From a virus, in the IMG/VR virus record IMGVR_UViG_3300020472_002797, positions 1-31,814 of that record: 31,814 bases of DNA. One strand, 5' to 3'. Shown here piece by piece: positions 10,023 through 31,810 of this stretch. Below the pieces are notes generated by a model that saw nothing but the letters and a program-made list of their open reading frames with translations, made no database searches and was not told the DNA's origin. Within the stretch, counting starts at the first letter, position 1; every line of letters starts with the position of its first letter. A program made the translations under genes and the position numbers.

Positions 10023-10790
10023 TTAAGAATTAAAAAGGTCATCGAAGGCATCACTTACATTTTCAGTTGTACTAACTGCTGTTTTTAAAGTTGATGCTGG
10101 TACTGATTCTTCCTTATTGGATTCTTCTGTACCTTCTTCGTTCTCAGGAGTCAACCAAGTATTAAGAGCTTCACTTAGTTCATCGTAAGATAACTCTTGA
10201 TAAACTTCGGTGATATCTTTTTGGTTGTCCAAGATATTCTCAAGTTGTGCCTTATCCTCTGTGATAGGTGTTTGATTTGGTTTAACACGGATGTTAGTTT
10301 TTGGGAATGATGCCCCAGTCTCTTCTGCAGTTAGGAACTCAACTCCAACATCACGACCATTCAATGGGTCAGCGATATCACCATAATCAGGATCCGCTAT
10401 GATTGATAGTAATTCTTGATAAACAGTTTTACCAAAACCCCAAAACTTAACACCTTGTGCTTCTTCTCCACGAACCACTACTGGTGCGAATGTTCTGAGT
10501 TTTGCTTCTAACTTCTTACCAAGTCTCCAATCCTCACGATTACCACTTGACTTTAACTTGTCAGCAAACTCTTCGATTGGGTCAGGTCTTCCAAATGAAG
10601 TTGGTGAAAGATAAGACTTTCCACCTAAGTCATAATGAAAAAACAGCTCAATAAACGGAGTGTCTTTTTGTAGTTTGTAAGGTACTATTCTGATTTGGGT
10701 TTTACCCGGTTGAGGTTTCCACAGATTTGTGGTACGAGTATTAGTCGTTTGTAACTGAGCTAATCTCTTGCGTACTGCGTTAATATCCAT
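10023..10790 (-). CDS. Single-stranded DNA-binding protein, gp32-like
   Basis: Coats ssDNA at forks and recombination intermediates. The 255-aa protein begins with a short basic-helical N-arm (MDINAVRKRLAQL) and continues into an OB-fold-like core rich in aromatics (NLWKPQPGKTQIRIVPY, LFFHYDLGGKSYL, VKFWGFGKTVYQELL). It ends in an acidic, Ser/Glu-rich tail finishing DAFDDLFNS (247-255), the type of C-terminus phage SSBs use to bind polymerase, helicase and recombinase. I see no Cys/His zinc site as in T4 gp32. The start has AAGGAG eight bases upstream. It is first in the replication operon, with its own promoter at 10863-10891 and a hairpin at the predicted mRNA 5' end (10835-10859). The identity rests on architecture and context as much as sequence. 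Confidence 0.85.
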   Translation of the reverse strand: MDINAVRKRLAQLQTTNTRTTNLWKPQPGKTQIRIVPYKLQKDTPFIELFFHYDLGGKSYLSPTSFGRPDPIEEFADKLKSSGNREDWRLGKKLEAKLRTFAPVVVRGEEAQGVKFWGFGKTVYQELLSIIADPDYGDIADPLNGRDVGVEFLTAEETGASFPKTNIRVKPNQTPITEDKAQLENILDNQKDITEVYQELSYDELSEALNTWLTPENEEGTEESNKEESVPASTLKTAVSTTENVSDAFDDLFNS

Positions 10791-10834
10791 TCGATATTCT
10801 CCTTATGTTTTATGTTTAATTTGTTAATTATTAA

Positions 10835-10859
10835 TTGTCATTGGTATGACCTTTGACAA
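10835..10859 (-). promoter_or_regulatory. Dyad/hairpin at the predicted 5' end of the gp32-like mRNA
   Basis: A 25-nt near-perfect dyad: TTGTCA pairs with TGACAA, then a 2x2 A/A internal loop, then GGT pairs with ACC around a CAT triloop. It lies just downstream of the -10 element, so it would be the first structure in the transcript. About 45 nt of unstructured A/U-rich leader then runs to the Shine-Dalgarno. It could be an RNA site for autogenous control or a DNA operator. Confidence 0.55.
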
Positions 10860-10862
10860 ATA

Positions 10863-10891
10863 TAAATATAACCCTTTGATAAAAAAATCAA
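10863..10891 (-). promoter_or_regulatory. Promoter for the gp32-uvsX-helicase operon
   Basis: The -35 is TTGATT (10886-10891) with a 17-bp spacer and -10 TATTTA (10863-10868); a TATATT two bases closer is the alternative -10. It lies between the ncRNA terminator and the gp32-like gene, where the next transcription unit must start. Confidence 0.55.
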
Positions 10892-10903
10892 ATATTTTTA
10901 GCT

Positions 10904-10969
10904 AAAAAAAAGGTGATGAGTTTTAAATAATAAAAATTATCGGTATATGTAAAAAGACCTCACCACCTT
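10904..10969 (-). terminator. Intrinsic terminator of the ncRNA transcription unit
   Basis: On the minus strand AAGGTGGTGAG (10959-10969) pairs with CTCATCACCTT (10910-10920) over 11 bp with one G-U pair, followed at once by eight T residues (10904-10911). The 38-nt A/T-rich loop holds a second small hairpin (ATAAT, TTTT loop, ATTAT). It separates the noncoding region from the gp32 promoter. Confidence 0.8.
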
Positions 10970-11301
10970 AAATAAATTGGAAAGTTAGGGAATACAGACA
11001 CACCCTTCTCATCTTTTAATTCTGTAAAGATACTTTCCAAAAATGAAAATTTGGGGATGTAGGGTTTGCGAATACCTACAACTTTCAGACTCAGATTTTT
11101 TCTACCTTGTACCTAACACCCAAAAGCTACTTTGGTTCTCCTCAATGATGGTTAGTCATCGTCAAAGTGAGTACAACCTCTGTGCCATTACCTTAACTCT
11201 CTGAGTTTAGTTTATTCGGTCACAAGATGGGATTTCGGTTTTACCCTTACCCATAACAAGGTCTAAGAATCGCTGTTCTTATATTTATCTGAAAGTACAT
11301 T

Positions 11302-11367
11302 CTCTTAGTGTTGTCACACGGTATTTTGAACATTCACCCGAATACCAACCCACCACGGGTCTAAGAG
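11302..11367 (-). other. H-type pseudoknot domain inside the candidate ncRNA
   Basis: A 7-bp helix CTCTTAG/CTAAGAG (11361-11367 with 11302-11308) encloses two crossing stems. ACCCG (11356-11360) pairs with CGGGT (11336-11340), and GGTATT (11341-11346) pairs with AATACC (11320-11325). The second stem's 5' strand directly abuts the first stem's 3' strand, so the two helices can stack; the connecting loops are 9 and 10 nt, long enough to cross. All pairs are Watson-Crick. Confidence 0.55.
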
Positions 11368-11467
11368 CAGATTACCTTATGAGCTTCAAAGTCACTCATT
11401 TTTCGGTCAATCCCATAGAGAGTTAATTAATCTCTCTACTTTCCATTTTCAATTTTTCAAAAAACTT

Positions 11468-11530
11468 ACGAGTCGATTCCAGTAGTCTCGAAGATCTTGC
11501 AGTGATGACTTAACATCTTAGTCGACTCGT
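11468..11530 (-). other. 63-nt 5' stem-loop of the ncRNA region (domain or upstream terminator)
   Basis: A perfect 9-bp stem ACGAGTCGA/TCGACTCGT closes a 45-nt interior that contains GATG/CATC (6-nt loop). It is followed by AAG and six T residues, so it could terminate transcripts arriving from the 75-aa gene at 11567 instead of being the first domain of the ncRNA. Confidence 0.5.
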
Positions 11531-11558
11531 ATATATATATTGTCTTGATTTCTCAAAA
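11528..11558 (-). promoter_or_regulatory. Possible promoter of the ncRNA
   Basis: TTGAGA (11551-11556) with TATACG (11528-11533) at 17 bp, or TTTTGA (11553-11558) with TATATA (11530-11535) at 17 bp. Either would start the RNA around 11521-11524, inside the first stem, so the real start or the stem's role is uncertain. The TATATATATA run makes a match by chance more likely. Confidence 0.4.
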
Positions 11559-11566
11559 CACATTTT

Positions 11567-11794
11567 TTATGCTTTAAATTCTCCGTTCATTGCTTCGTTA
11601 AAATCATGTTTTTCTTTATCAGAGATTGTAACATTCTTTTCAATCCTATGGATTAATTCACCCATCAAATCTTTTGCTGAATCTATGTAGTAAATAGAAT
11701 CACTATTGATTGGGTCTTCATGTGCTGTATTGTAAGCGTCTGTTAATTCTGAATCAATACTTTCTAAGTAATCTAATATTTCTTTTTTAGTCAT
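11567..11794 (-). CDS. Small acidic helical protein, unknown
   Basis: 75 aa, no recognised family. It is predominantly charged and helical (MTKKEILDYLESIDSELTDA, then GELIHRIEKNV and DKEKHDFNEAMNGEF), soluble, without cysteines or membrane segments. The ATG has an excellent Shine-Dalgarno (GAGGAG, six-base spacing) lying across the end of the previous gene, which stops one base before this ATG. It is last in the operon driven by the promoter at 12385-12413. Position among small early-type genes suggests host takeover or regulation, which is inference only. Confidence 0.7.
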   Translation of the reverse strand: MTKKEILDYLESIDSELTDAYNTAHEDPINSDSIYYIDSAKDLMGELIHRIEKNVTISDKEKHDFNEAMNGEFKA

Positions 11795-15425: not shown

Positions 15426-17594
15426 TTATTTCTTCATACTCTTTATTTTATCATCTAAAGAGTCGATCCTTTTTTGTATTACATCATACTCTTTTTGAGT
15501 ATAGGATGAACCATCGGCTGTTAATGCCTTTAAATCTTCTTGTGCTTCCTTCTTCAACTTAGAGTAAAAATTCTTTTGAATCTGAAACGGCCAACTTTCA
15601 GGATTCCAACCATGTTGTAATGCCTTCGCTGTATAATCGGTGTGTAAAATCTCCAATTGTGGTGGAGTTGGTAAACCACGACTTCTTGCCTTTGTGTTAA
15701 ATAGTGGGTAGTATCCATTCTCGTGCTTGACACCAATTGTTTTTGTGGCATAATCAACACTTAATTTTCCCCTAACCATTTCCATTACCTCTTCTTGTAA
15801 TTCTTTTCTTTCTTTCTCATCTTTTGTATCTCTGGCCTGACCAATCAATGATAATACCTTATCTTTTTCTTCCCCATCACCAAAAAATAAACCGGTAAAT
15901 GTGTTTAAATCCATCATCGAACCTAATTCGTTAGTACCTTCTCCCTTTTCATTACTACCAAATAAGACTTTGAAATCATCAACACCACCTGAGTCTTTAA
16001 ATCCAAGAACTTCACCCAAATGAACTCCATTCAAAAGAAAGTTTTTGAACGCCTTTTCATTTTCTGGTGACTTTCCAATAAAATCATACATCTTATCAGA
16101 TAGTTTGTGTTCCCATTGTCTGAAATTATTATATAATTCTCTTGACCTTGTATAATTAGGATCATCCTTTGGTGTATCATTTACAACAAATCTAAGTATA
16201 CCTTTTGCATGTTTAGCTGTTGTTTCTAATTTACCACTTTGGAGATATTCGTCTAATTGCTGTTCGGTTGTTTTACCTTCCCAAGTTGATGAATCACCTA
16301 CAAATGGTTTTAAATAATCTTTATATCCAGCCCTTAGTGTTGATTTACCAGTCAATTTTTTAAAATCTTGTTCGGCTTGTCTATCACCATTCATACCTCT
16401 TGTGTATAAATCTTTTGCCCTATCTATGGTGTTTATTAAATTTGTTCGAGTGTTTGACTTTTCTTTTAACTCGTTGGAAAGTGTAGTCTGTGCATCTTGT
16501 ATTCCTTTTTGCCAAACTTGTAATCCTGCTGTATCTTGAAACTCATTTAGTATCTTATCGACTTCTCCCTCATCCATACCCGATTCTAACATCTCACTTC
16601 TCATAGATTCTAAAACCTTTGGAAATTCTTGTTTATAAGTTTTATTTGCTATTGCTACATTTCCATCCTTCTTCAAAGATAGTGCTACAACAGAACCATC
16701 TTTAGTAGATATAAACATATCACCAGCACCTTCTTCAGCTGCCTTATCGTTTTCACCCTTGATACCAACATGCTTTCTACCATTAGTTGTGTCCCAACCG
16801 ATTTCTTTTACATTCTCAATACCTATGGCTTCAGGATTTTTATTCTCGTCTTTAATCATCATCCTTTCAATCGAATTAATGGATGATTCTACCCATTCAG
16901 GTTCAAGATAAGTTTCTTTATTATTTTCCCACTTTCCTTTTTCGTTTTGTGAACCAGCCTTTTGTAACATTTCTGCTCTGAATTTTGATAAAAAATTATT
17001 TCTTAACCAATTCTTTTTATCTTCATAACTTAATGATTCCCAAGCCTGTTTATCGTTTCCAAACTGAGCTCTCCAAGTTTTAACGGCCTGTTTCATTCCT
17101 TTGACTACGGTTGCTTCTCCTGCAGTACTTGCTGGTTTACCCATACCTAAATCAATATCATCAGGTAGTTCCTCACCATCTTCTCGTTCAGTTGCAAATT
17201 CTAAATATCTGTCTTCTTCTTTACTCTCAGGTGTATCATCATATCCTCTTTCATCTTTTTGAGGTTTTTCATCCTTACCTTTCTGTAAATCGTCATCATC
17301 CTTTACACCAAGTGCCTTCTTAACATCTTGAGCTGATGCATCTTTTTTTACTAACCTTTGTCCTCTATCAGGATTAAATTGTTTAACTGGATAATCAGAA
17401 CCATAACTACCATCAGGTTGTTTTTTTCTAACTAAGTCGATTTCGTATAAAAAATTATTAACTGCATTTTTATTCCAACCCCTTTTCAAGAGTTCCATTC
17501 TCAATAACATTCTATCGTTAGGATTTGTAAAATCAGGAGCTCCACCTTTAGATTTAAAACTAAAACCCTCTAATAATTTTTCCCAATAATTCAT
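15426..17594 (-). CDS. Large unknown protein with a nuclease-like motif
   Basis: 722 aa. Residues 1-50 form an ordered start (MNYWEKLLEGFSFKSKGGAP, RMELLKRGWNKNAVNNFLYE), followed by an acidic, disordered, Asp/Glu/Lys-rich linker (about 95-150). Residues ~232-312 (EWVESSINSIERMM, WDTTNGRKHVGIKG, GAGDMFIST, VVALSLKKDGN) have the helix-strand-strand layout and the D...(S/E)xK spacing of PD-(D/E)XK nucleases: Asp292, then Ser306-Leu-Lys308. The C-terminal third includes PLFNTKARSRGLPTPPQLEI and ends in a Lys-rich coiled coil. The start has CGGAGA seven bases before the ATG and a 4-base ATGA overlap with the polymerase-like gene. It could be a virion or DNA-processing protein. The nuclease idea is inference from pattern only. 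Confidence 0.78.
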   Translation of the reverse strand: MNYWEKLLEGFSFKSKGGAPDFTNPNDRMLLRMELLKRGWNKNAVNNFLYEIDLVRKKQPDGSYGSDYPVKQFNPDRGQRLVKKDASAQDVKKALGVKDDDDLQKGKDEKPQKDERGYDDTPESKEEDRYLEFATEREDGEELPDDIDLGMGKPASTAGEATVVKGMKQAVKTWRAQFGNDKQAWESLSYEDKKNWLRNNFLSKFRAEMLQKAGSQNEKGKWENNKETYLEPEWVESSINSIERMMIKDENKNPEAIGIENVKEIGWDTTNGRKHVGIKGENDKAAEEGAGDMFISTKDGSVVALSLKKDGNVAIANKTYKQEFPKVLESMRSEMLESGMDEGEVDKILNEFQDTAGLQVWQKGIQDAQTTLSNELKEKSNTRTNLINTIDRAKDLYTRGMNGDRQAEQDFKKLTGKSTLRAGYKDYLKPFVGDSSTWEGKTTEQQLDEYLQSGKLETTAKHAKGILRFVVNDTPKDDPNYTRSRELYNNFRQWEHKLSDKMYDFIGKSPENEKAFKNFLLNGVHLGEVLGFKDSGGVDDFKVLFGSNEKGEGTNELGSMMDLNTFTGLFFGDGEEKDKVLSLIGQARDTKDEKERKELQEEVMEMVRGKLSVDYATKTIGVKHENGYYPLFNTKARSRGLPTPPQLEILHTDYTAKALQHGWNPESWPFQIQKNFYSKLKKEAQEDLKALTADGSSYTQKEYDVIQKRIDSLDDKIKSMKK

Positions 17595-18910
17595 AATTTC
17601 TCCGTTATATCTTCCATTTCGTGGTAATTCAAACCCTTTGAAGATTTAGTCGGAAACACTCTATTTTGTTCGAGTATTTCTTTTACATCTGTCAAAAAAT
17701 CTAAACCATCGGTTAGTTTGAAGTCAAACAAAAAGCTATCGTAACTATACAATATTAACTTACTTTGTTTACCCTTCAAGAACGGAATCAATTCACTCAT
17801 AACCTTCATATTGTTTTCCGTTTCCAACAACTGAATCATATAGTTAAACAACTTATTACGATTCATGGCCGAAAGATTTTTTTTGTATATTCTCTTGTTA
17901 TAAATATTGCTTTCTACGAAATCTCTTCGTTTGAAATCACTCCAAATTTCATTTATATAGTTATTAACACGAAAGAAAAATGGATTCGTATCAATTACTT
18001 CTTGAGGTATTCTACCATAAAGATACTGAAATGAGGTACTTTTGGATGTTTCATAGTCCACATCACCATAAAATTCACTCATATGTTCATGAACCGACCC
18101 TTTTGGGAACTTATAATCCAAAATATGACCAATCAATCTTAAGTGATATGCATCATAGTCAAACTCCACCAATATACCATCTTGAAATCTACTCGTGTAT
18201 GGTTTTCTTGATTCATCCTTTTTATTTAGAGCTGCAAAATTAATACCACCGAATCTGTTACTTGGTCGACCAGTTGAGGTGTATAAATTATATTCACTAA
18301 ACACCATTTTATCATCTTTTCTTAATCCACTCTTTTCTATGAAACTTAAGTTTTCTATGATTTCATTGTTATACTCTTCGTGGATAGGTAATTTATAATT
18401 GTCCTCTAATAGTTTAACTTGTTCTCTACATAATTCTAAGTGTTTAAGTATTGGTATTATACGATTGGTATTTTTCATTTTCCACATTACTCTGTAAAAG
18501 TAATCATGTGTATTGGTGGATATTTCCTCTATCGATAAAGGCTCATTCTTATTCATGTAATGTTGTAAATTTACATCTATTACTTTTTTCATAACTTCAT
18601 CTTTCAAAACATTACCACTTGGTGTATTAATACCAAATTCCAATATATGAGATAGTTGTTTTTTATCATGAACGAATATACTACCGAACTTATTTATTGT
18701 CAATAGTTTTTTTAAACTTAGTTTTAATGCTTCTCCATGATTAAAGCACAACAAACCCTCTTCACCATCAACTATTTTTACATAAATAGCACAGAGTGAA
18801 TTATCTAATGGATGTCTATTCACATCCGATAATATTGGAATTATAAAGCAATCTTTGTTCTGATTTTCAAGCAAAAAATCATCTAATTGATTGTCTTTTT
18901 CAATTATCAC
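17591..18910 (-). CDS. Short, divergent family A DNA polymerase-like protein
   Basis: 439 aa. The C-terminal half is a family A palm/fingers: TSTGRPSNRFGGIN (211-224, like the TGRLSS..PNLQNIP block), motif A FDYDAYHLRLIGH (250-262; Asp251 = Klenow Asp705), motif B with Lys290, Phe294, Tyr298-Gly299 (= K758, F762, Y766-G), a NYMIQ block (356-360, = N845/Q849) and motif C YSYDSFLF (388-395; Asp391 = Asp882). Both metal-binding Asp are kept, but several usual residues differ: His256 for steric-gate Glu710, Tyr286 for Arg754, Tyr390-Asp-Ser392 for His-Asp-Glu. The N-terminal ~190 residues show no 3'-5' exonuclease motif I can recognise. GTG start with AGG nearby. The genome also begins a family B polymerase at 231. 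Role: repair, primer extension or an inactive accessory factor. Confidence 0.82.
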   Translation of the reverse strand: MIIEKDNQLDDFLLENQNKDCFIIPILSDVNRHPLDNSLCAIYVKIVDGEEGLLCFNHGEALKLSLKKLLTINKFGSIFVHDKKQLSHILEFGINTPSGNVLKDEVMKKVIDVNLQHYMNKNEPLSIEEISTNTHDYFYRVMWKMKNTNRIIPILKHLELCREQVKLLEDNYKLPIHEEYNNEIIENLSFIEKSGLRKDDKMVFSEYNLYTSTGRPSNRFGGINFAALNKKDESRKPYTSRFQDGILVEFDYDAYHLRLIGHILDYKFPKGSVHEHMSEFYGDVDYETSKSTSFQYLYGRIPQEVIDTNPFFFRVNNYINEIWSDFKRRDFVESNIYNKRIYKKNLSAMNRNKLFNYMIQLLETENNMKVMSELIPFLKGKQSKLILYSYDSFLFDFKLTDGLDFLTDVKEILEQNRVFPTKSSKGLNYHEMEDITEKL

Positions 18911-21682: not shown

Positions 21683-24532
21683 TTAAGTCTCGTTTCTAAA
21701 GTTTACATTATTCGTGTAATTACCTGAACTCTGTAATCCAGCAGTTCCATCATACCCCTCCTTTACATACCTTGTTGAGTAAAGACCACCTCTCCATGTA
21801 AACGCCTTATTTTCTCCGAGTGCCTTTCTTGCCTTTTGAAAAGCCTTTTCGAATGAACTTGCTTCGATTGGTGGAACAGTTTTTTCATCAAAAATATCCA
21901 ATCTTTCTTCCTCAAGTGAAATTATTCCATTGTTTTCCGCAGGTGGGATATCCTTTGTTTCTACTGAAGGATTCATCACTACCCAATCTTTTGTGTCAAT
22001 TACATCATATAGTGTATCCGTTGCTATTCTAACTTGACCTTTTATAGTTGTGTTCCAAACTCCATCGGTGATTGCGTGGTCTACACTCATTGCTTGAAAC
22101 AAAGTCAACTCCCTATATCTCTTTGGAATATACGATACATGAAACAAATTACCAGGAAAGACTCCACCAAGACCTTGTATGACAATCTCACATTCTATGG
22201 GTAACAAATCGGTAGAACCTCTACTTGCCTTTTTAACTTTGGCCTTAACATCACCATCTTTCAAAATACTCAAATCTATCGTACCTGAAAGTATGTTATT
22301 CATGACTCTTTTGAAAACAATTTCATCATCGACTTTTTCGTTTAAGTTACCTTTAGAATCATAGAGAGCTTTCTTTTTCTTAAATTCCTCGGTAAATTTT
22401 TGTATACATTTGGGGTCTCTAGCTCCTTGTTTTGCCTCAATTGTCTTTTTATCCTCTTTGGTCTCATTTTTATCTTCATCATTTTTAGCGTACTTTTTTA
22501 ATATTTCAGTCCAATCTATTTGGTCAAAGGCATGTCCCTTTTTTGAACCAAAGTATTTATTTTGTAGTTTATCAGTTGAACCTGCCCCTTGATAGATGTT
22601 TGGATTTAATGAACCAAAGGAATCAAATAATTTATTTGGTTCGTAAACTTTTTTCTGAGACAAATCTGTGGATTCGGCACCATGCATTTTACCAGTAGCA
22701 ACCGCATCACCATCACCTTGAGAATTATCTGAATTTGGATTGGATATTCCAGCATACATGGCAGTTACCGCAAAAGAACTCGGAAGTTTAACAGACAAGG
22801 TTTGTGACTTCACAATACTTTTCTCTCCCCATGTGTCAAAAACAAACATCTCGGTCAATTCCTTTGGTTTTCCAGCCTGTATATCTTGCTTTCTGTCTTT
22901 GATGTATTGGGATGGTTCCTTTAATGTTGCTTTAGTATCGATAACTTTGATGTTACCAGGTATAAATGGGTCATTGACAACTTGAAAACTCCAAAATCCA
23001 TTTACATCACGATTAATCTCATCAAATAGTCTTTGTAACCCTTGTTGTAATGTTTTTGCTTCCTTGAATGAGTCTTCTATTATATCACAATGTATCAAAA
23101 TATTTCTCAAATATCCACCAGCACCTTTATTACCCTTTTCGACTGAGAAACGATGGTAATTTGTACCATTGTTGAAATATGAAGCTGCCCTTGCTATCAT
23201 TTCTTCTTTTGTTAAGTTGAATGTGTTTTTCTCAAGTGGGTCTATGTCTTCATTGAATGGAAATTGACCTGGTAGAACCCACCTATCCAAATGTGGTGTC
23301 ATTAAAAACTCATTGTTACCAATTACGACAGATTGAAATACTGCCTCTTCAATATTGTTAGTGGAACCACCACCATCTTTTAAAAATGAACCATCGCCTT
23401 CTTTGGATGGAACTGGTTCGATACTTCTAAATTGATTGGTGATTTTACCATCTTCACTTAATTTAGCACACCACTTATTTAAAATGTTATCTTCCATCCA
23501 TCCCCAAGTAATATAGGGGCCGACATTTTTTTCTGTATTGAACCAACTATCTCCACGAAAGTAAGCTACACCAGGTGGTTGTTTATTTGTTGATGGATTC
23601 CAATCGTCATCTGCCCAATTCGATGGTTCCCTACTTTTATCACCTTCTCCACCAATAGCTCCTAATCCACCAACACTCAATGTAATTATTTGTTCTCTTA
23701 GTGCGGATATAAATTCAGGTAATGTTGGTGATACTTCAAATTTTTCAATATCTTTACCATCTTCTCCCTTGATTGTTGTGGCTAAAGGAGCATCAGGTTG
23801 GTCTAATTGTTTACTCAATACATTGACACCACGAGATACAATTGTGGTCTGAACATCGAATCCACCATCATCTCTTAATGACCATTCAAAATTAGATATC
23901 ACCCCACACATTCCATCGTATGTACCACCACTCTCTAAAACCATTTCATTAATACGAGTGTATGCCTTACCATCTTTCATTTCTTCTTCCGAAATATTAT
24001 CAGCTACGGTATTTTTAAATGAGCTTTGATAACCCCACTCCAATAACACACCTTTACCAGGTGAAGCAAAGTGAGGGATTAATCTTTCCAAATCATCTAA
24101 ATCCCAAGCTACCCAGTTGATGGTTGATTCTCTTATGGCAAATAGTCCACCTTTGTACTGACAGGTAAAATCTATAATACCAGGTATTGGTCGGTTTAAT
24201 TCATTTGGTTTTACATCTAAGGCTCCAAGAGCATCATAAACACTTCTTCGACCATATATATTTGAATAACCAGCTGATTCATGATAACTTCCACCTTCGG
24301 AAAATACCTCACCACCATATAAACGAGCTCTGTATTCTCTTTCACCGATTTCTGCAACACTAAACATCTTAACCCATAAGGATTTCATAGTTTCATCTGA
24401 AATTATATTTAGTGTATCTTCAGATTGTGGTTCTAATATATCTCGTCCATTTGAACTGAGACGAGATACGGCCATTTCTCTTTTTACTAAGGTTTTTCTT
24501 ACTTTTTTATTTATTGGTAATAAATTTATCAT
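21683..24532 (-). CDS. Large baseplate protein (hub/wedge type)
   Basis: 949 aa. The N-terminal third (VFSEGGSYHESAGY, PGIIDFTCQYKGGLFAIRES, WDLDDLERLIPHFASPGKGV, GVISNFEWSLRDDGGFDVQT) resembles large baseplate proteins of marine T4-like phages. A central part has QQGLQRLFDEINRDVNGFWS, and near residues 770-850 the segment LPIECEIVIQGLGGVFPGNL, then SYIPKRYREL, VDHAITDGVWNTTIKGQVRI is the kind of hub-domain strand pattern found in gp27/gpD-like proteins. It overlaps the gp53-like gene as TAATG, with GGAGG and GGTGG in the leader. No lysozyme domain seen. The exact T4 equivalent is uncertain. Confidence 0.78.
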   Translation of the reverse strand: MINLLPINKKVRKTLVKREMAVSRLSSNGRDILEPQSEDTLNIISDETMKSLWVKMFSVAEIGEREYRARLYGGEVFSEGGSYHESAGYSNIYGRRSVYDALGALDVKPNELNRPIPGIIDFTCQYKGGLFAIRESTINWVAWDLDDLERLIPHFASPGKGVLLEWGYQSSFKNTVADNISEEEMKDGKAYTRINEMVLESGGTYDGMCGVISNFEWSLRDDGGFDVQTTIVSRGVNVLSKQLDQPDAPLATTIKGEDGKDIEKFEVSPTLPEFISALREQIITLSVGGLGAIGGEGDKSREPSNWADDDWNPSTNKQPPGVAYFRGDSWFNTEKNVGPYITWGWMEDNILNKWCAKLSEDGKITNQFRSIEPVPSKEGDGSFLKDGGGSTNNIEEAVFQSVVIGNNEFLMTPHLDRWVLPGQFPFNEDIDPLEKNTFNLTKEEMIARAASYFNNGTNYHRFSVEKGNKGAGGYLRNILIHCDIIEDSFKEAKTLQQGLQRLFDEINRDVNGFWSFQVVNDPFIPGNIKVIDTKATLKEPSQYIKDRKQDIQAGKPKELTEMFVFDTWGEKSIVKSQTLSVKLPSSFAVTAMYAGISNPNSDNSQGDGDAVATGKMHGAESTDLSQKKVYEPNKLFDSFGSLNPNIYQGAGSTDKLQNKYFGSKKGHAFDQIDWTEILKKYAKNDEDKNETKEDKKTIEAKQGARDPKCIQKFTEEFKKKKALYDSKGNLNEKVDDEIVFKRVMNNILSGTIDLSILKDGDVKAKVKKASRGSTDLLPIECEIVIQGLGGVFPGNLFHVSYIPKRYRELTLFQAMSVDHAITDGVWNTTIKGQVRIATDTLYDVIDTKDWVVMNPSVETKDIPPAENNGIISLEEERLDIFDEKTVPPIEASSFEKAFQKARKALGENKAFTWRGGLYSTRYVKEGYDGTAGLQSSGNYTNNVNFRNET

Positions 24533-27800: not shown

Positions 27801-29549
27801 AATGGCATCTAAGTAAGTTTCACCACCTAAATGTCTATCTATATGAACTATCGGTGCAAGTGAACCAAGTGACAATGGGTTCCAAATTCTTGTTTCAGCT
27901 CTTGGATTCAGTAGTTGTAAACCAGCCTGTTTCAATCCAAACATTATACCTTTTGGTGTTAATATAAATTTGGCAATTCTTGAAACATCTCCCAAGGTTC
28001 TTGCTACTGATGTAACAGCACCACCTCTAAATAATCCCTCATCTAATGTTGAATCTATATTAGGACCCCATTTGTCTCCAATATCCTTCAGTATAAATGG
28101 TTGGTCAAAACCAAATATTGTATTGTCTCTGGCGTCAAAATTATAAGGTTTTCTATCAGGAAATGTGTAGAAATTATTTCCATCAGGATCTACATTTGGT
28201 GAATCTAAATCGATTGTTTTTAATGAGGTTTCACCTTTTGTAAAAGTTTTAAATGTACCTGAATCTGTAGGACCTCTGTTTGAGGAATCCACATAAAAAT
28301 CATCCGTACTAAATCCTGAATCAAATACAGAATTCATAAGGAATCCATCATCATTTGCAAACCTACTACTAAACGCTTCTATTGGTGTGGTTTGAAAATC
28401 ACTTCCGTGTGCTCCTGTTGCCACTCTATCTAAATTTATTGTTGTTTGATAAGTATCGGTTGTGGGTCCTGTTAGGGTAATCATACTAACTTTATGTGTT
28501 GCAGTATCCGTACCTATTTGACTCGTATAAGATGGTCGAGTCATAAAATCACTACCATGTAAATCTTCTATCAATGGGTCATCACTAAATGCACCTATTG
28601 TAAACTGAGTAGGTCCTGTTGAGTTATGTTGTGGTATTACATATGGTATACCAGTTCCAAATACAAAAGGACTGAAATTAGGTGATGTTAATGTAACTCT
28701 TTTTAATGATGAATCACCACGAGTAAATTGTTTAAATATTATTTCACTCGGTTCAACTAAACTAGCTCCATCAGGTACGGTATACATCCCACTTCTACTA
28801 AATCCACTTTCTATATCTGTCCTTAAATCTCCTATTGAAAACTGACTTGTATAATTTGTCAATGGTGAGAAAAAATCACTCCCATGTGCGTTAGGTACGA
28901 TTGGTTCGGTGTTTAAATTTGATTGGTAGGAATCATCAAAAGGTCCTGTCAATACTATCTGTGGAATATTGAATGTTGTTTGTATTCCATCAAAACCAAC
29001 AATATTACTTTCTGTACCTGGTGGATTTGTATTTCCACCTTGTAATGGTACTCGGAATCCACCGATATCATCTCCATATAGTGAAGCTCGTGGTGTGATT
29101 GGTAATAAATTTCCATAGTATGAAACTCCACCACCTATTGCACCAATGATATCACCATCAGAGGTATGTCTTGAATCACCGAAAGATACACTACTATATT
29201 GATTATATACAGACCTTGAGGTATCTCTCATCTGTGTGTGGTCGAATGGAGTTAATATGGAATTAAATTCTCCCATTCCGTAAATCGAACCTTCACTTCC
29301 AACTATGTCACCACCATAATTTACTATAAATCTTTTATCACCACTTATCGTGTATCCACGAACATTGAAGGATTGTGGTGAGGAATTTGGGTCTACTCCG
29401 AAACCAACTCCATTATCAAAATCTGAATTATCAATAGGAGCATCAATTGTTCCATGTCTACCCTCAACCTGTGATTGTACACTTCCAGCACTACCATAAT
29501 CGGTATATCTGAAGTTTGATAAATCTGTTATTAAATCTTTAAGTGCCAT
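24870..29549 (-). CDS. Giant baseplate/tail protein with internal repeats and a tube-cap-like C-terminus
   Basis: 1559 aa. The N-terminal half is Gly/Ser/Asp/Asn-rich and low in lysine, with repeated units at about 190-460 (see the repeat feature). The middle (about 1000-1350) is Asn/Lys/Asp/Pro-rich and probably extended. The last ~190 residues form a conserved-looking domain (REISFDFSIAAMSRQQLLVV, INYLTGLTYPNW, APFISLTIGDMYNRMPGYLN, LPKIVNVNCTFTHIGKHPL) of the type found in tail-tube initiators or caps (gp48/gp54 class) of marine myoviruses. So this appears to be a baseplate tube-cap domain carrying a very long N-terminal extension. It overlaps the tape-measure gene and the gp53-like gene as TAATG, which fits the order of tail genes. 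No catalytic motif seen. Confidence 0.78.
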   Translation of the reverse strand: MALKDLITDLSNFRYTDYGSAGSVQSQVEGRHGTIDAPIDNSDFDNGVGFGVDPNSSPQSFNVRGYTISGDKRFIVNYGGDIVGSEGSIYGMGEFNSILTPFDHTQMRDTSRSVYNQYSSVSFGDSRHTSDGDIIGAIGGGVSYYGNLLPITPRASLYGDDIGGFRVPLQGGNTNPPGTESNIVGFDGIQTTFNIPQIVLTGPFDDSYQSNLNTEPIVPNAHGSDFFSPLTNYTSQFSIGDLRTDIESGFSRSGMYTVPDGASLVEPSEIIFKQFTRGDSSLKRVTLTSPNFSPFVFGTGIPYVIPQHNSTGPTQFTIGAFSDDPLIEDLHGSDFMTRPSYTSQIGTDTATHKVSMITLTGPTTDTYQTTINLDRVATGAHGSDFQTTPIEAFSSRFANDDGFLMNSVFDSGFSTDDFYVDSSNRGPTDSGTFKTFTKGETSLKTIDLDSPNVDPDGNNFYTFPDRKPYNFDARDNTIFGFDQPFILKDIGDKWGPNIDSTLDEGLFRGGAVTSVARTLGDVSRIAKFILTPKGIMFGLKQAGLQLLNPRAETRIWNPLSLGSLAPIVHIDRHLGGETYLDAIGGSDGEDSILTGYGNAVTSTPALQGGKIAFQTARRITLAHTLAMVPGSGGKVSIGALPEIGFDLTAGGSGNINAFSRNIVGVDKYNRTKPYTLIDGTSTLPARNPEAGYKSGILASRYAGSPLTEMFITEDGIRQAGSNIDFPSKAITDNVLRAERFDGNLDDIDSPYFGNSNTNSNFGVDSDTNKVDVLRTVNFVNIGNPLNPIHNRLTPADKVGQLDFTQQLIYDPLSEDYPSQLRLAKEGVYIGDYHGPDSDDELSPYYSGRGNYQSFPSLERTNARIVGGGDELYAQIGRSGGLPDSINYNKAYFHVFGDQNNPIVSISTGHPPTLQDRSIFRDNFFVIDTDLSPNSNEVLYYGKNTFMRGEGRKYEDEVGKDDRKPGFINLGLSSPSVRKNNINQSNQAHMVAATTPIGNAVWDPELVASGEIDPNNPPTQGLYKLGNNIHQPRQGEDRTKKGIPTRNTKPDEGPIQRPYKVANDKKDSEGPTYSDVKRNRDNPNAPGSHYSLSDGEKGDPQIRITQTWIDKNRYPYDYSQPIKLQEFPLKNKDVNAEGTNSGPELQALSFLSPEKGDVGNLYGLPTREKFGNLGDRYQDLMQKDDFPNKIVIKQSKDNPNELILPRIASNSDEPELKIVDGSSDTKKVFETEKTNKFKDNPLIKGAGDDLSQKNTISGNAINRYKTLAYGDLPSTSEGAEGTLANRYDERSKVSTQDNPNQPVKPLLDRKSPNVPDNLIRFENKDGIGFIKIYNNDIKGDTRDKYDKINMTQYGKDTNEDYIKFKFFDEVNKKHIIFPATLKGLNDTFSPDYASERYIGRPDQVWVYQGTNREISFDFSIAAMSRQQLLVVWEKINYLTGLTYPNWVTQGNTTRMQAPFISLTIGDMYNRMPGYLNGLTYDVEDNATWDTEEGYQLPKIVNVNCTFTHIGKHPLANRGIHYDTPWTRPLARQNGNDGTSGYTNLPRSSDNKDLSLILGDN
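28160..28980 (-). repeat. Protein-level repeats within the 1559-aa baseplate protein
   Basis: The unit (A/L)HGSDF occurs three times (encoded near 28395-28409, 28545-28559 and 28872-28886). LTGPxxDxYQxxxN precedes two of them, and FKxFTxGxxSLKxxxLxSPNxxP occurs twice between them. The copies have diverged at the DNA level, so these are old structural repeats and not a recent tandem duplication. Confidence 0.7.
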
Positions 29550-31810
29550 TATGCAAATGTTACCAAGTCACTAAATCCTTTAGCTTCATCGGCTCCTCTC
29601 TTAGTGTTGGATTTGATTGTTTTTAATTGATTATTCATCATATCCAACTTTTGATTTTGTTCTGTTAATAATTGTTCTACTTTATTATCCTCTTCTCCAC
29701 CACCACCAGCTCCACTTACTGCGTTGAATGCTGTAAGAGCGAGAAGTGCTGGTAATGCAAGTAATCCAGCTCCTGCGAATAGTGTCATTGAACCTGCAAG
29801 TGCGGTAAATCCTGCGGCCGTAGCGAATAATCCTAATGCTACAGTTGGACTGGCTACTGTCATCAACTTGACTGCAAAATCTCCGATTGCTCCTATAATT
29901 GTTGATATACCCTTTGCAATAGATTTAATCATAATTCCCATTACAAATCCAATAGCCTTGATGGCAGGTACTACAGATTTAACTATACTCGATATGGCTT
30001 CTCCGAAAGCTCTGATACCAGGTGCGGCGAGTTTAAGTGCAAATCCCATACCAATTAATTGTAGGGTTATAGCTGCCATTCCAAGCATAACTTTAGGATT
30101 TGAAAAGGCTCCCATTCCTTTGGCTAATCCTGATAATCCAGCACCCATTCCTTTTCCACCTTTTGCTAAAGCTTGACCAACTCCACCACCTTTTGCGGCA
30201 CCAGCGGCTCCACCACCACCACTTACTGCACTTTTTAATTTATCTTTCACACCACCAAGTGATTTCATAAGACCACCACCGATATTTGTACCAGCTAATT
30301 TCATTTTTAGTGCGAATAAAGTAGCTAGTGCAACAAGTGAACCTAATAATACTCCTCCAAATTCAAAATGTTTATTAATCACCTCAACTAGCTTACCAAG
30401 TGCTACAAATCCAGCTATGGTTAAGGTTACAGGATAAAATGCTACAGCTATGGCTATTCCCAATCCAACGAATGCTGGTATCATAGCCTTTGCTAAAGAC
30501 AAAAGACTTGCCATTGACCCACCGATAAACTTTAGTATCCCTGCTATCATATCTCTTGATTTTTTCTCACCTTCGGTCATGTTATTGATTTTATCTTGGT
30601 TGGTAATCATCTTACCTAATTCACCAACACTAACACCAAAAGCGTCTGCTAATGCTCTCCTCTGTACAACATTCATAGCTTCAAAATCAGCTTGACTACC
30701 TATCTGTGAGGTAATCTCTCTTTGCATACCATCTAAATCACCTGAAAGTGCCAATTCACGAGCTTTATCGGTATTTATATTTCTACCCGTTAACATCTGA
30801 GCTTCCATCTGTGCGTTTACAGATTCTTCGAAATTTAATAGACTATCCGTAATCTTACTTACGGTTGCCATTTCTAAACCGAGTTTCTTTGCTGTTATGG
30901 CGGCCATAGCTAGGTTTCTTCCACCATCTTGTGCGAAACCAGCGAATAAATCACTATCACTTGCTATGTCATTTAGAATATCACCTGGTGCCACATCGTT
31001 AGCTCTTGCAAGTGCGGCAACTGATTCAATCTGTGACATCGCGGCTTCTTGACTACTTGCCCCAACTGCCATCATTTGAGTGGCTAACTTGGTTACATTC
31101 TCACCACTAATTCCTGTAGTGGCTACTAAACTTGTAAATCCTTTTACTAAATCTGCCGATGGTTGTGTGGTTCCACCTAAGTTCTGTCTAATACCATCGG
31201 TTATTCCCTTTACATCTTCACCAGTAACTCCTAATAACTTAAACTGCATAGCGGTTAGATTTATTGTGGATTGTAGTTTGGCGGCGTTACCGAATGATAC
31301 ACCTAATTCTTTACGAGTCTCCAATATACCATCATACATTGCGGAAAGTGCTGTACCAGCTGCTACCATAGCAACTACAAAAGCAAACATTGGGTTGGCT
31401 AATACTGCCTTTCCAAGAGATGTAAATCCGTCAACAATACCATTAATGGCTGTCATACCACTCGTTCCTATTTCTGATATTGCTTCATCAAATGTTTTAA
31501 CATTGTTAGGATCCATTGCGGCAACTAATCCTTCTCTTGTGGTTTCGACAAAATCTTCCATGGCTCTATCGACACCAATTATTGGGGCTATCAATGAACC
31601 CATAGGCATGGATTCTAATAAACCATGTAAAGTTTCAAATGGTCCTGTTATAAATTTTGACGCACCCTTCACTTTTCTATCTAACTCATCTTGGAGTTTG
31701 TTTTGTCTATCCGTAGCATCTAATGCTGCAAGTTGTGACTTATAAATTTCTTTTTTCTCGTCACCAATGGATTTATTTACCCCAAAATATCTTCGGGTAA
31801 TCATTTCCAT
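29549..31810 (-). CDS. Tape-measure protein, possibly 5'-truncated by the window edge
   Basis: 753 aa visible; sets tail length and passes through the tube. Typical composition: hydrophobic Ala/Gly/Met/Leu-rich segments at ~141-158 (MFAFVVAMVAAGTALSAM), ~440-500 (SLAKAMIPAFVGLGIAIAVA and following) and ~620-705, a Gly-rich hinge (SGGGGAAGAAKGGGVG) and a C-terminal coiled coil (VEQLLTEQNQKLDMMNNQLK). Between them is a helical body with regular heptads (TGISGENVTKLATQMMAVGA). No peptidase or lysozyme domain. The frame stays open through the four bases before the first ATG, so the true start could lie outside. At ~1.5 angstrom per residue, 753 aa would correspond to a tail of roughly 110 nm, near T4. 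It overlaps the 1559-aa gene as TAATG. Confidence 0.88.
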   Translation of the reverse strand: MEMITRRYFGVNKSIGDEKKEIYKSQLAALDATDRQNKLQDELDRKVKGASKFITGPFETLHGLLESMPMGSLIAPIIGVDRAMEDFVETTREGLVAAMDPNNVKTFDEAISEIGTSGMTAINGIVDGFTSLGKAVLANPMFAFVVAMVAAGTALSAMYDGILETRKELGVSFGNAAKLQSTINLTAMQFKLLGVTGEDVKGITDGIRQNLGGTTQPSADLVKGFTSLVATTGISGENVTKLATQMMAVGASSQEAAMSQIESVAALARANDVAPGDILNDIASDSDLFAGFAQDGGRNLAMAAITAKKLGLEMATVSKITDSLLNFEESVNAQMEAQMLTGRNINTDKARELALSGDLDGMQREITSQIGSQADFEAMNVVQRRALADAFGVSVGELGKMITNQDKINNMTEGEKKSRDMIAGILKFIGGSMASLLSLAKAMIPAFVGLGIAIAVAFYPVTLTIAGFVALGKLVEVINKHFEFGGVLLGSLVALATLFALKMKLAGTNIGGGLMKSLGGVKDKLKSAVSGGGGAAGAAKGGGVGQALAKGGKGMGAGLSGLAKGMGAFSNPKVMLGMAAITLQLIGMGFALKLAAPGIRAFGEAISSIVKSVVPAIKAIGFVMGIMIKSIAKGISTIIGAIGDFAVKLMTVASPTVALGLFATAAGFTALAGSMTLFAGAGLLALPALLALTAFNAVSGAGGGGEEDNKVEQLLTEQNQKLDMMNNQLKTIKSNTKRGADEAKGFSDLVTFA

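Follow-up and report, generated by a model that had tools for sequence, protein, structure and literature searches.

Among described RNAs, the closest to the one reported here is manA, a family found in marine T4-like phages. It is typed as cis-regulatory in Rfam (RF01745) and was listed as a riboswitch candidate in the main paper of Weinberg et al. (2010; PMC2864571). An ordinary manA RNA contains one core, in which helix P6 forms a local hairpin. A riboswitch candidate since 2010, manA is still without an assigned ligand or function. The main text of that paper gives tandem copies for glnA and mentions neither tandem copies of manA nor a link to gp32, and the R2R paper (PMC3023696) refers to unspecified modular structures in some manA RNAs. 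Other systems of interest are the GOLLD and ROOL RNAs, which are large, phage-borne and rich in pseudoknots and often lie in tRNA arrays (PMC12286853), and the tandem riboswitches, such as those for glycine or the tandem glnA elements (PMC2864571), which hold two like cores in one RNA. The RNA described here is a nested two-core variant of the manA family and is most likely made as an RNA of its own. Our search of main texts in the literature found no published description of this nested double form; an earlier account in supplementary files is possible.

The window, the whole 31,814-nt stretch of phage DNA analysed here, contains one long gap between ORFs, which measures 776 nt between the flanking ORF edges at 10790 and 11567, whereas each of the remaining gaps separating the main ORFs is shorter than about 100 nt. 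The first-pass annotation had read this only long gene-free stretch of a tightly packed window as a candidate for a large and richly folded RNA running in the direction of the genes, and both the coordinates it gave (11530-10904) and the orientation (minus strand) are correct. The RNA region fills the gap bounded by a small ORF on its 5' side (11567-11794, minus strand) and by gp32, the single-strand DNA-binding protein gene that comes first downstream (10023-10790, minus strand; PHROG phrog_1192, E 1.5e-17). No sense ORF of at least 40 aa is found inside the gap, and the single ORF there is antisense and 53 aa long (11043-11204). In most homologues the longest stop-free runs reach merely 27-66 codons (101 in one homologue). 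A conserved ORF, which the annotation had named as evidence against an RNA, is thus missing from the region, and a protein-coding reading was rejected. The phage is T4-like, yet several of its large proteins (15426-18910, 21683-24532 and 29549-31810) have no PHROG match at E 0.001.

An Rfam scan of the whole window gives a single match, manA, which scores 65.5 bits at 11255-11054, above the cut-off of 55.2. A separate scan of the 5' half of the region aligns it with the complete manA model at 11438-11224; its 36.4 bits (E 3e-8) are below that cut-off. Many relatives show two adjacent manA matches. Since both the second core (core B) and the 5' half match manA, the region holds a genuine RNA of a named family, and its two manA cores agree with that family in sequence and structure. 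The manA features P0, closing pseudoknot, P1a/P1b, the P2-P5 multistem junction and P7 are all present with compensatory changes, P4 of the first core (core A) being too variable for scoring. In ordinary manA P6 is local to one core, whereas here the second core interrupts it and P6 pairs across the insert. Its outer and inner helices thereby connect A with B, which makes the RNA a variant rather than a plain member. In addition, the closing pseudoknot spans both cores, and P1, a 5' hairpin, a pseudoknot with a loop of core B and a terminator of its own are extra to the ordinary form. The manA family thus extends to a two-core, interlocked RNA of about 440 nt, which in Rfam is scored as no more than one 192-nt motif.

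For GOLLD, ROOL, OLE, HEARO, RNase P and tmRNA, the Rfam scan returned no match, whether at gathering score or with the threshold relaxed to E 5; at the relaxed threshold rox2, on the other strand, is the sole match besides manA (25 bits against a cut-off of 55). ARAGORN detected no tRNA or tmRNA, and blastn of the RNA region against phage records gave nothing real. It is therefore highly improbable that the RNA belongs to GOLLD, ROOL or another known class of large ornate RNAs, or to an entirely new one, as had been suggested at first. The similar size, the many pseudoknots and the phage origin would suit such a class, as would the tRNA neighbourhood of manA in cultured cyanophages, which recalls that of GOLLD and ROOL (PMC12286853). 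However, manA is the sole significant match, and the window RNA is shorter than GOLLD and ROOL, shares no Rfam similarity with them and has no tRNAs nearby. Membership of the GOLLD and ROOL families is refuted by the scan, and instead of a wholly new class we find a nested form of a known one.

Homologues were collected by a gp32 protein search, which gave 80 related viral contigs, and by a 19-base pattern taken from the RNA and independent of gp32, which gave further loci. About 105 loci carry the RNA, which is kept, with its promoter-like start and its terminator, in about 100 related phage contigs. Conservation of the loop that holds the 19-base pattern is partly a selection effect, because the pattern sits in that one loop; L019, L020, L022 and L048, which were recruited through gp32, lack the pattern and yet fit the fold. 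Apparent extra copies of the RNA further upstream in L019, L020, L048 and L053 result from a seed sequence that was misanchored; they overlap with coding sequence and were left unused. Matches to the pattern in the genome contigs L167-L176 are not this RNA. The alignment (A1) contains 42 sequences, most of them less than 96% identical to each other, with a mean identity of 66%.

Folded as a single sequence, the RNA exceeds shuffles in stability by only a modest margin (z -1.8), so the roughly ten stems counted in the first-pass annotation are no proof of structure by their number, although structure itself is upheld by the comparative test. The structure on the 42-sequence alignment has 95 pairs in 19 helices, and 96.6% of its paired cells are standard pairs, compared with 79.0% in 500 shuffles and 35-44% when the partners are slid by one to three columns. 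Similarly, the covariation score is 0.555, compared with 0.214 for the shuffled and 0.08-0.11 for the slid controls. Compensatory changes on both sides occur in 68 of the 95 pairs; the nested form thus supplies many homologues with strong covariation, the kind of evidence on which the annotation had made its proposal depend. RNAalifold recovers the pairing of the first core's start with the second core's end from the alignment, and the final structure combines the RNAalifold result with pairs added by inspection. Because the structure derives in part from these sequences, the slid control flatters it, and stronger support comes from the size of the difference from the controls and from a strand-shuffle test of the P6 outer helix. 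Altogether, comparison of the sequences establishes which family the RNA belongs to and that it has the nested fold with its pseudoknots, as well as the 5' hairpin and the terminator.

The layout revealed by this comparison is manA within manA, with the second core located inside helix P6 of the first. The closing helix P1 (11044-11451, minus strand as all features of the RNA) pairs UGAAAAU (11451-11445) with AUUUUCA (11050-11044) around both cores. In an alignment-free test the ends of each sequence pair better with each other than with those of other sequences, and 0 of 2000 permutations were as good (p <0.0005). Inside P1, the whole nested core (11054-11439) begins with P0 (11439-11415), followed by GGGAU (11414-11410), which forms the closing pairing with AUCCC (11058-11054), and it contains P7 at 11079-11059. 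This one long-range pairing and this one P7 close both cores. Core A (11302-11407) is composed of P1a, P1b, P2, P3 and P5, all of which show compensatory changes, and it fits the manA covariance model. P6 of the outer manA (11081-11296) is split by the insertion into two helices, which enclose core B and join A to B. The outer helix pairs ACUUUCAG (11296-11289) with CUGAAAGU (11089-11081). Once a gap has been moved by one column it is 88.7% paired, a value that none of 2000 strand shuffles equalled. The inner helix pairs CCUUGU (11261-11256) with ACAAGG (11110-11105) and is 98% paired, with compensatory changes in five of its six pairs.

Core B (11114-11254), which lies within the 65.5-bit Rfam match, contains an opening hairpin (11254-11227; AUGGG/CCCAU here, of GUGGGUAAGGGUAAAACCGAAAUCCCAC type in relatives), P1a, P1b and P2 to P5. 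Its P1b loop forms a pseudoknot (11090-11205) through CUCAGA (11205-11200) and UCUGAG (11095-11090). This pairing is complete (100%) in the 42 sequences and covaries, three of its pairs showing compensatory changes, with variants such as CUUGGA/UCCAAG, CUCUGA/UCAGAG and GUUAGA/UCUAAC. Moreover, an invariant GAANAA loop is kept in both cores. A further candidate pseudoknot (PKA), between the P1b loop of core A and GUACUUC, has four pairs with one-sided changes only and was dropped in favour of the P6 outer helix.

Two adjacent manA matches could also stand for two independent riboswitches in simple tandem, each closing on itself and together giving cooperative or more digital control; indeed, the covariance model allows core A to be closed by the CCC in core B's opening hairpin. 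Covariation, however, selects the long-range partner. In five sequences (L158, L042, L080, L102 and L128) the closing pair has become GGAAU/AUUCC while the nearer AUCCC is unchanged, and in four sequences it is GGGGU/ACCCC. The GGAAU/AUUCC changes disfavour separate closure, and the outer and inner P6 helices connect A with B, which leaves the simple tandem very unlikely. The nested RNA resembles the known tandem riboswitches in holding two like cores, but here one core is nested in the other and the two interlock, and we found no switching platform.

At the 5' side of the RNA lies a promoter-like element, TTTTGAG-N12-TATATATATA (11530-11558). The pattern TTTTGRGN{10,18}TATATATA occurs at a single site in the window, where two matches overlap, with an expectation of 0.00 from shuffles, and TTTTGRG with TATATATA recurs at the equivalent place in most homologues. 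The RNA probably starts near 11529. It opens with a 5' hairpin (11469-11529) in which CGAGTCGA and TCGACTCG form 8 bp around a 45-nt insert with GATGTTAAGTCATCACTG. Nearly all homologues have a hairpin at this position, its sequence differing in almost every lineage, and its folding z averages -3.2 among homologues and is below -1 in 32 of 35.

Between the closing arms, at 11526-11469 of the window, the 5' hairpin carries a small element, GATGTTAAGTCATCACTG..GACTACTGG, which also occurs in L016 (470-487), L157 (593-610) and L015 (1091-1108). As a hairpin of its own, with a T run after it, it stands upstream of the RNA in L016 and L157, and the copies in L119, L105 and L108 enclose a larger insert. 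The element has the look of a portable RNA cassette. The gene-free stretch upstream of the RNA holds a further repeated element, CGTGGTTTCGTCCTTTCTACGATAATTTGAAAGG, in L006 and L016, and in L016 also a tRNA-like remnant, GGTTCGAATCC.

At the 3' end, the intrinsic terminator (10904-10969) pairs AAGGTGGTGAG (10969-10959) with CTCATCACCTT (10920-10910) through 10 Watson-Crick pairs and one G-U around a loop of about 38 nt and ends in T8 (10911-10904), in agreement with the 11-bp terminator described at first reading. A long hairpin followed by a T-rich tract is found 3' of the core in 40 of 41 loci, with arm sequences that vary freely; the T tract is weak in the two nested loci before hsp20 (L147 and L092). 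The transcript probably extends from about 11529 to about 10904. With a promoter-like start and a terminator of its own and no ORF, the locus has the make-up of a stand-alone RNA gene, at the level of sequence. Upstream segments were no more complementary to a locus's own terminator arms than to the arms of other loci (p 0.19 and 0.32 for the two arms), so neither arm has a matching upstream segment above the chance level. A classic attenuator, that is, a transcription-attenuating riboswitch with a competing antiterminator, is therefore without support, but a protein-controlled terminator would slip past this test. In most lineages (L022, L044, L062, L066 and others) the long loop of the terminator hairpin keeps an inner stem, TTTTTAGTTTCCACY..ACTTAAAAA, that is absent from the window's. 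The near-invariant GUGG loop of core A might find a pairing partner in the CCAC of the terminator loop of these relatives.

The terminator is followed by gp32's own leader (10791-10900), which carries the promoter-like TATATTTATA; it is kept in relatives with and without the RNA and belongs to gp32 rather than to the RNA. This leader opens (window 10900-10791) with a hairpin, GUCAAAGGUCAUACCAAUGAC, whose form recurs in relatives with changed sequence and which may be a T4-like gp32 operator. In T4, gp32 represses its own mRNA through a 5' pseudoknot of about 28 nt, to our knowledge without a terminator. The present locus is alike in having a pseudoknotted RNA upstream of gp32, but that RNA measures 440 nt and only here is there a terminator.

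In 55 of 61 nested loci the first conserved gene to follow on the same strand is gp32, an unbiased count since these loci were found through the RNA and not through gp32. The RNA precedes Hsp20 (L147 and L092) or other genes in the other six, in whose records no relative of this gp32 was found. Such a neighbourhood fits cis-control and plain synteny equally well. The main rival to a separate RNA is a cis-acting leader in which manA senses a ligand or protein and a terminator or read-through sets the output of the gp32-uvsX replication operon; as a sub-version, gp32 itself might bind the manA fold. It is this recurrence of gp32 downstream of the nested form, and likewise of the single-core form, that keeps cis-control alive. 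However, among gp32 loci with enough upstream sequence the RNA is present in only 21 of 58, and it is missing from many close relatives in which this leader precedes gp32.

Single-core manA in other phages bears on both sides of this question. In marine phage contigs (L177-L296) its commonest next gene is gp32 (27 of 109, at 27-89 nt), followed by transaldolase (talC), a phosphomannomutase-like gene, Hsp20 and others. A sigma70-like promoter lies directly 5' in 28 of 44 non-redundant metagenomic loci, a terminator-like hairpin is found in only 13 of the 44, and an ORF often follows within 20-90 nt. Metagenomic single-core manA therefore mostly looks like a 5' leader, and the notion that manA is never one was rejected. 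In the cultured cyanophages examined (S-CREM1; ACG-2014f; S-B05, S-H68 and RN05-S), by contrast, single-core manA fills the space between tRNA genes almost to the nucleotide. For example, in L164 tRNA-Arg occupies 1410-1483, manA 1485-1695 and tRNA-Thr starts at 1697, whereas in ACG-2014d, which lacks manA, tRNA-Arg and tRNA-Asn are 22 nt apart. Because manA fills that gap so exactly, the Rfam 'cis-reg' label is a poor fit there. This placement cannot be generalised, because, of about 110 single-core loci from metagenomes, only about 5 have a tRNA abutting manA; manA as a tRNA-array RNA holds for the cultured cyanophage lineages examined.

Weighing these observations, we consider the cis-acting leader possible but rather unlikely. 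Single-core manA at transcript 5' ends, the gp32 counts for both forms, the Rfam type and the candidate status in the main paper of Weinberg et al. (PMC2864571) all speak for it. On the other hand, a strong terminator and a separate gp32 leader intervene between the RNA and gp32, which follows it on the same strand. Moreover, the terminator arms vary freely while the core stays fixed, no antiterminator is seen, and manA has other neighbours as well, preceding talC, Hsp20 or a phosphomannomutase-like gene or lying inside tRNA arrays. Our preferred reading, to which we assign a probability of about 0.58, is a phage noncoding RNA gene of about 620 nt with its own promoter and terminator. The manA matches and the covariation of the nested fold, the conserved promoter-like start, the variable 5' hairpin, the terminator, the lack of an antiterminator, a gp32 leader that occurs with or without the RNA and the six loci with other genes downstream argue for it; gp32 as the usual next gene, the mostly leader-like single-core manA and the poor T tract of L147 and L092 argue against.

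In this stand-alone gene, the transcript would fold as a manA RNA with a second manA core inside P6, closed by the long-range pairing and P7, and would be made as a discrete, stable molecule acting in trans. The 5' hairpin and the terminator hairpin may protect its ends, the two cores with their invariant GAANAA loops could bind a ligand or protein, either at two sites or at a composite one, and gp32 would be expressed from its own promoter behind the RNA. That a structured RNA inserted into a helix of its own relative yields a large, interlocked two-core phage RNA that is separate and acts in trans during infection has, in our estimate, about even odds. If so, the manA family would have a two-core end that exceeds a cis-regulatory element, beside a single-core form packed between tRNA genes in cultured cyanophages. 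We found no published discussion of the gp32 link of either form or of the tRNA-array position in cultured cyanophages. Together, the link and the position lead to three predictions: a discrete RNA, control of gp32, or processing out of tRNA arrays.

A single manA between two tRNA genes is seen in L084 (2133-2502), L161 (1406-1764) and L164-L166 (1410-1771). In S-CREM1 (L084, 1746-2568), wcaG, manA and abiF RNAs are interleaved with tRNAs within 820 nt.
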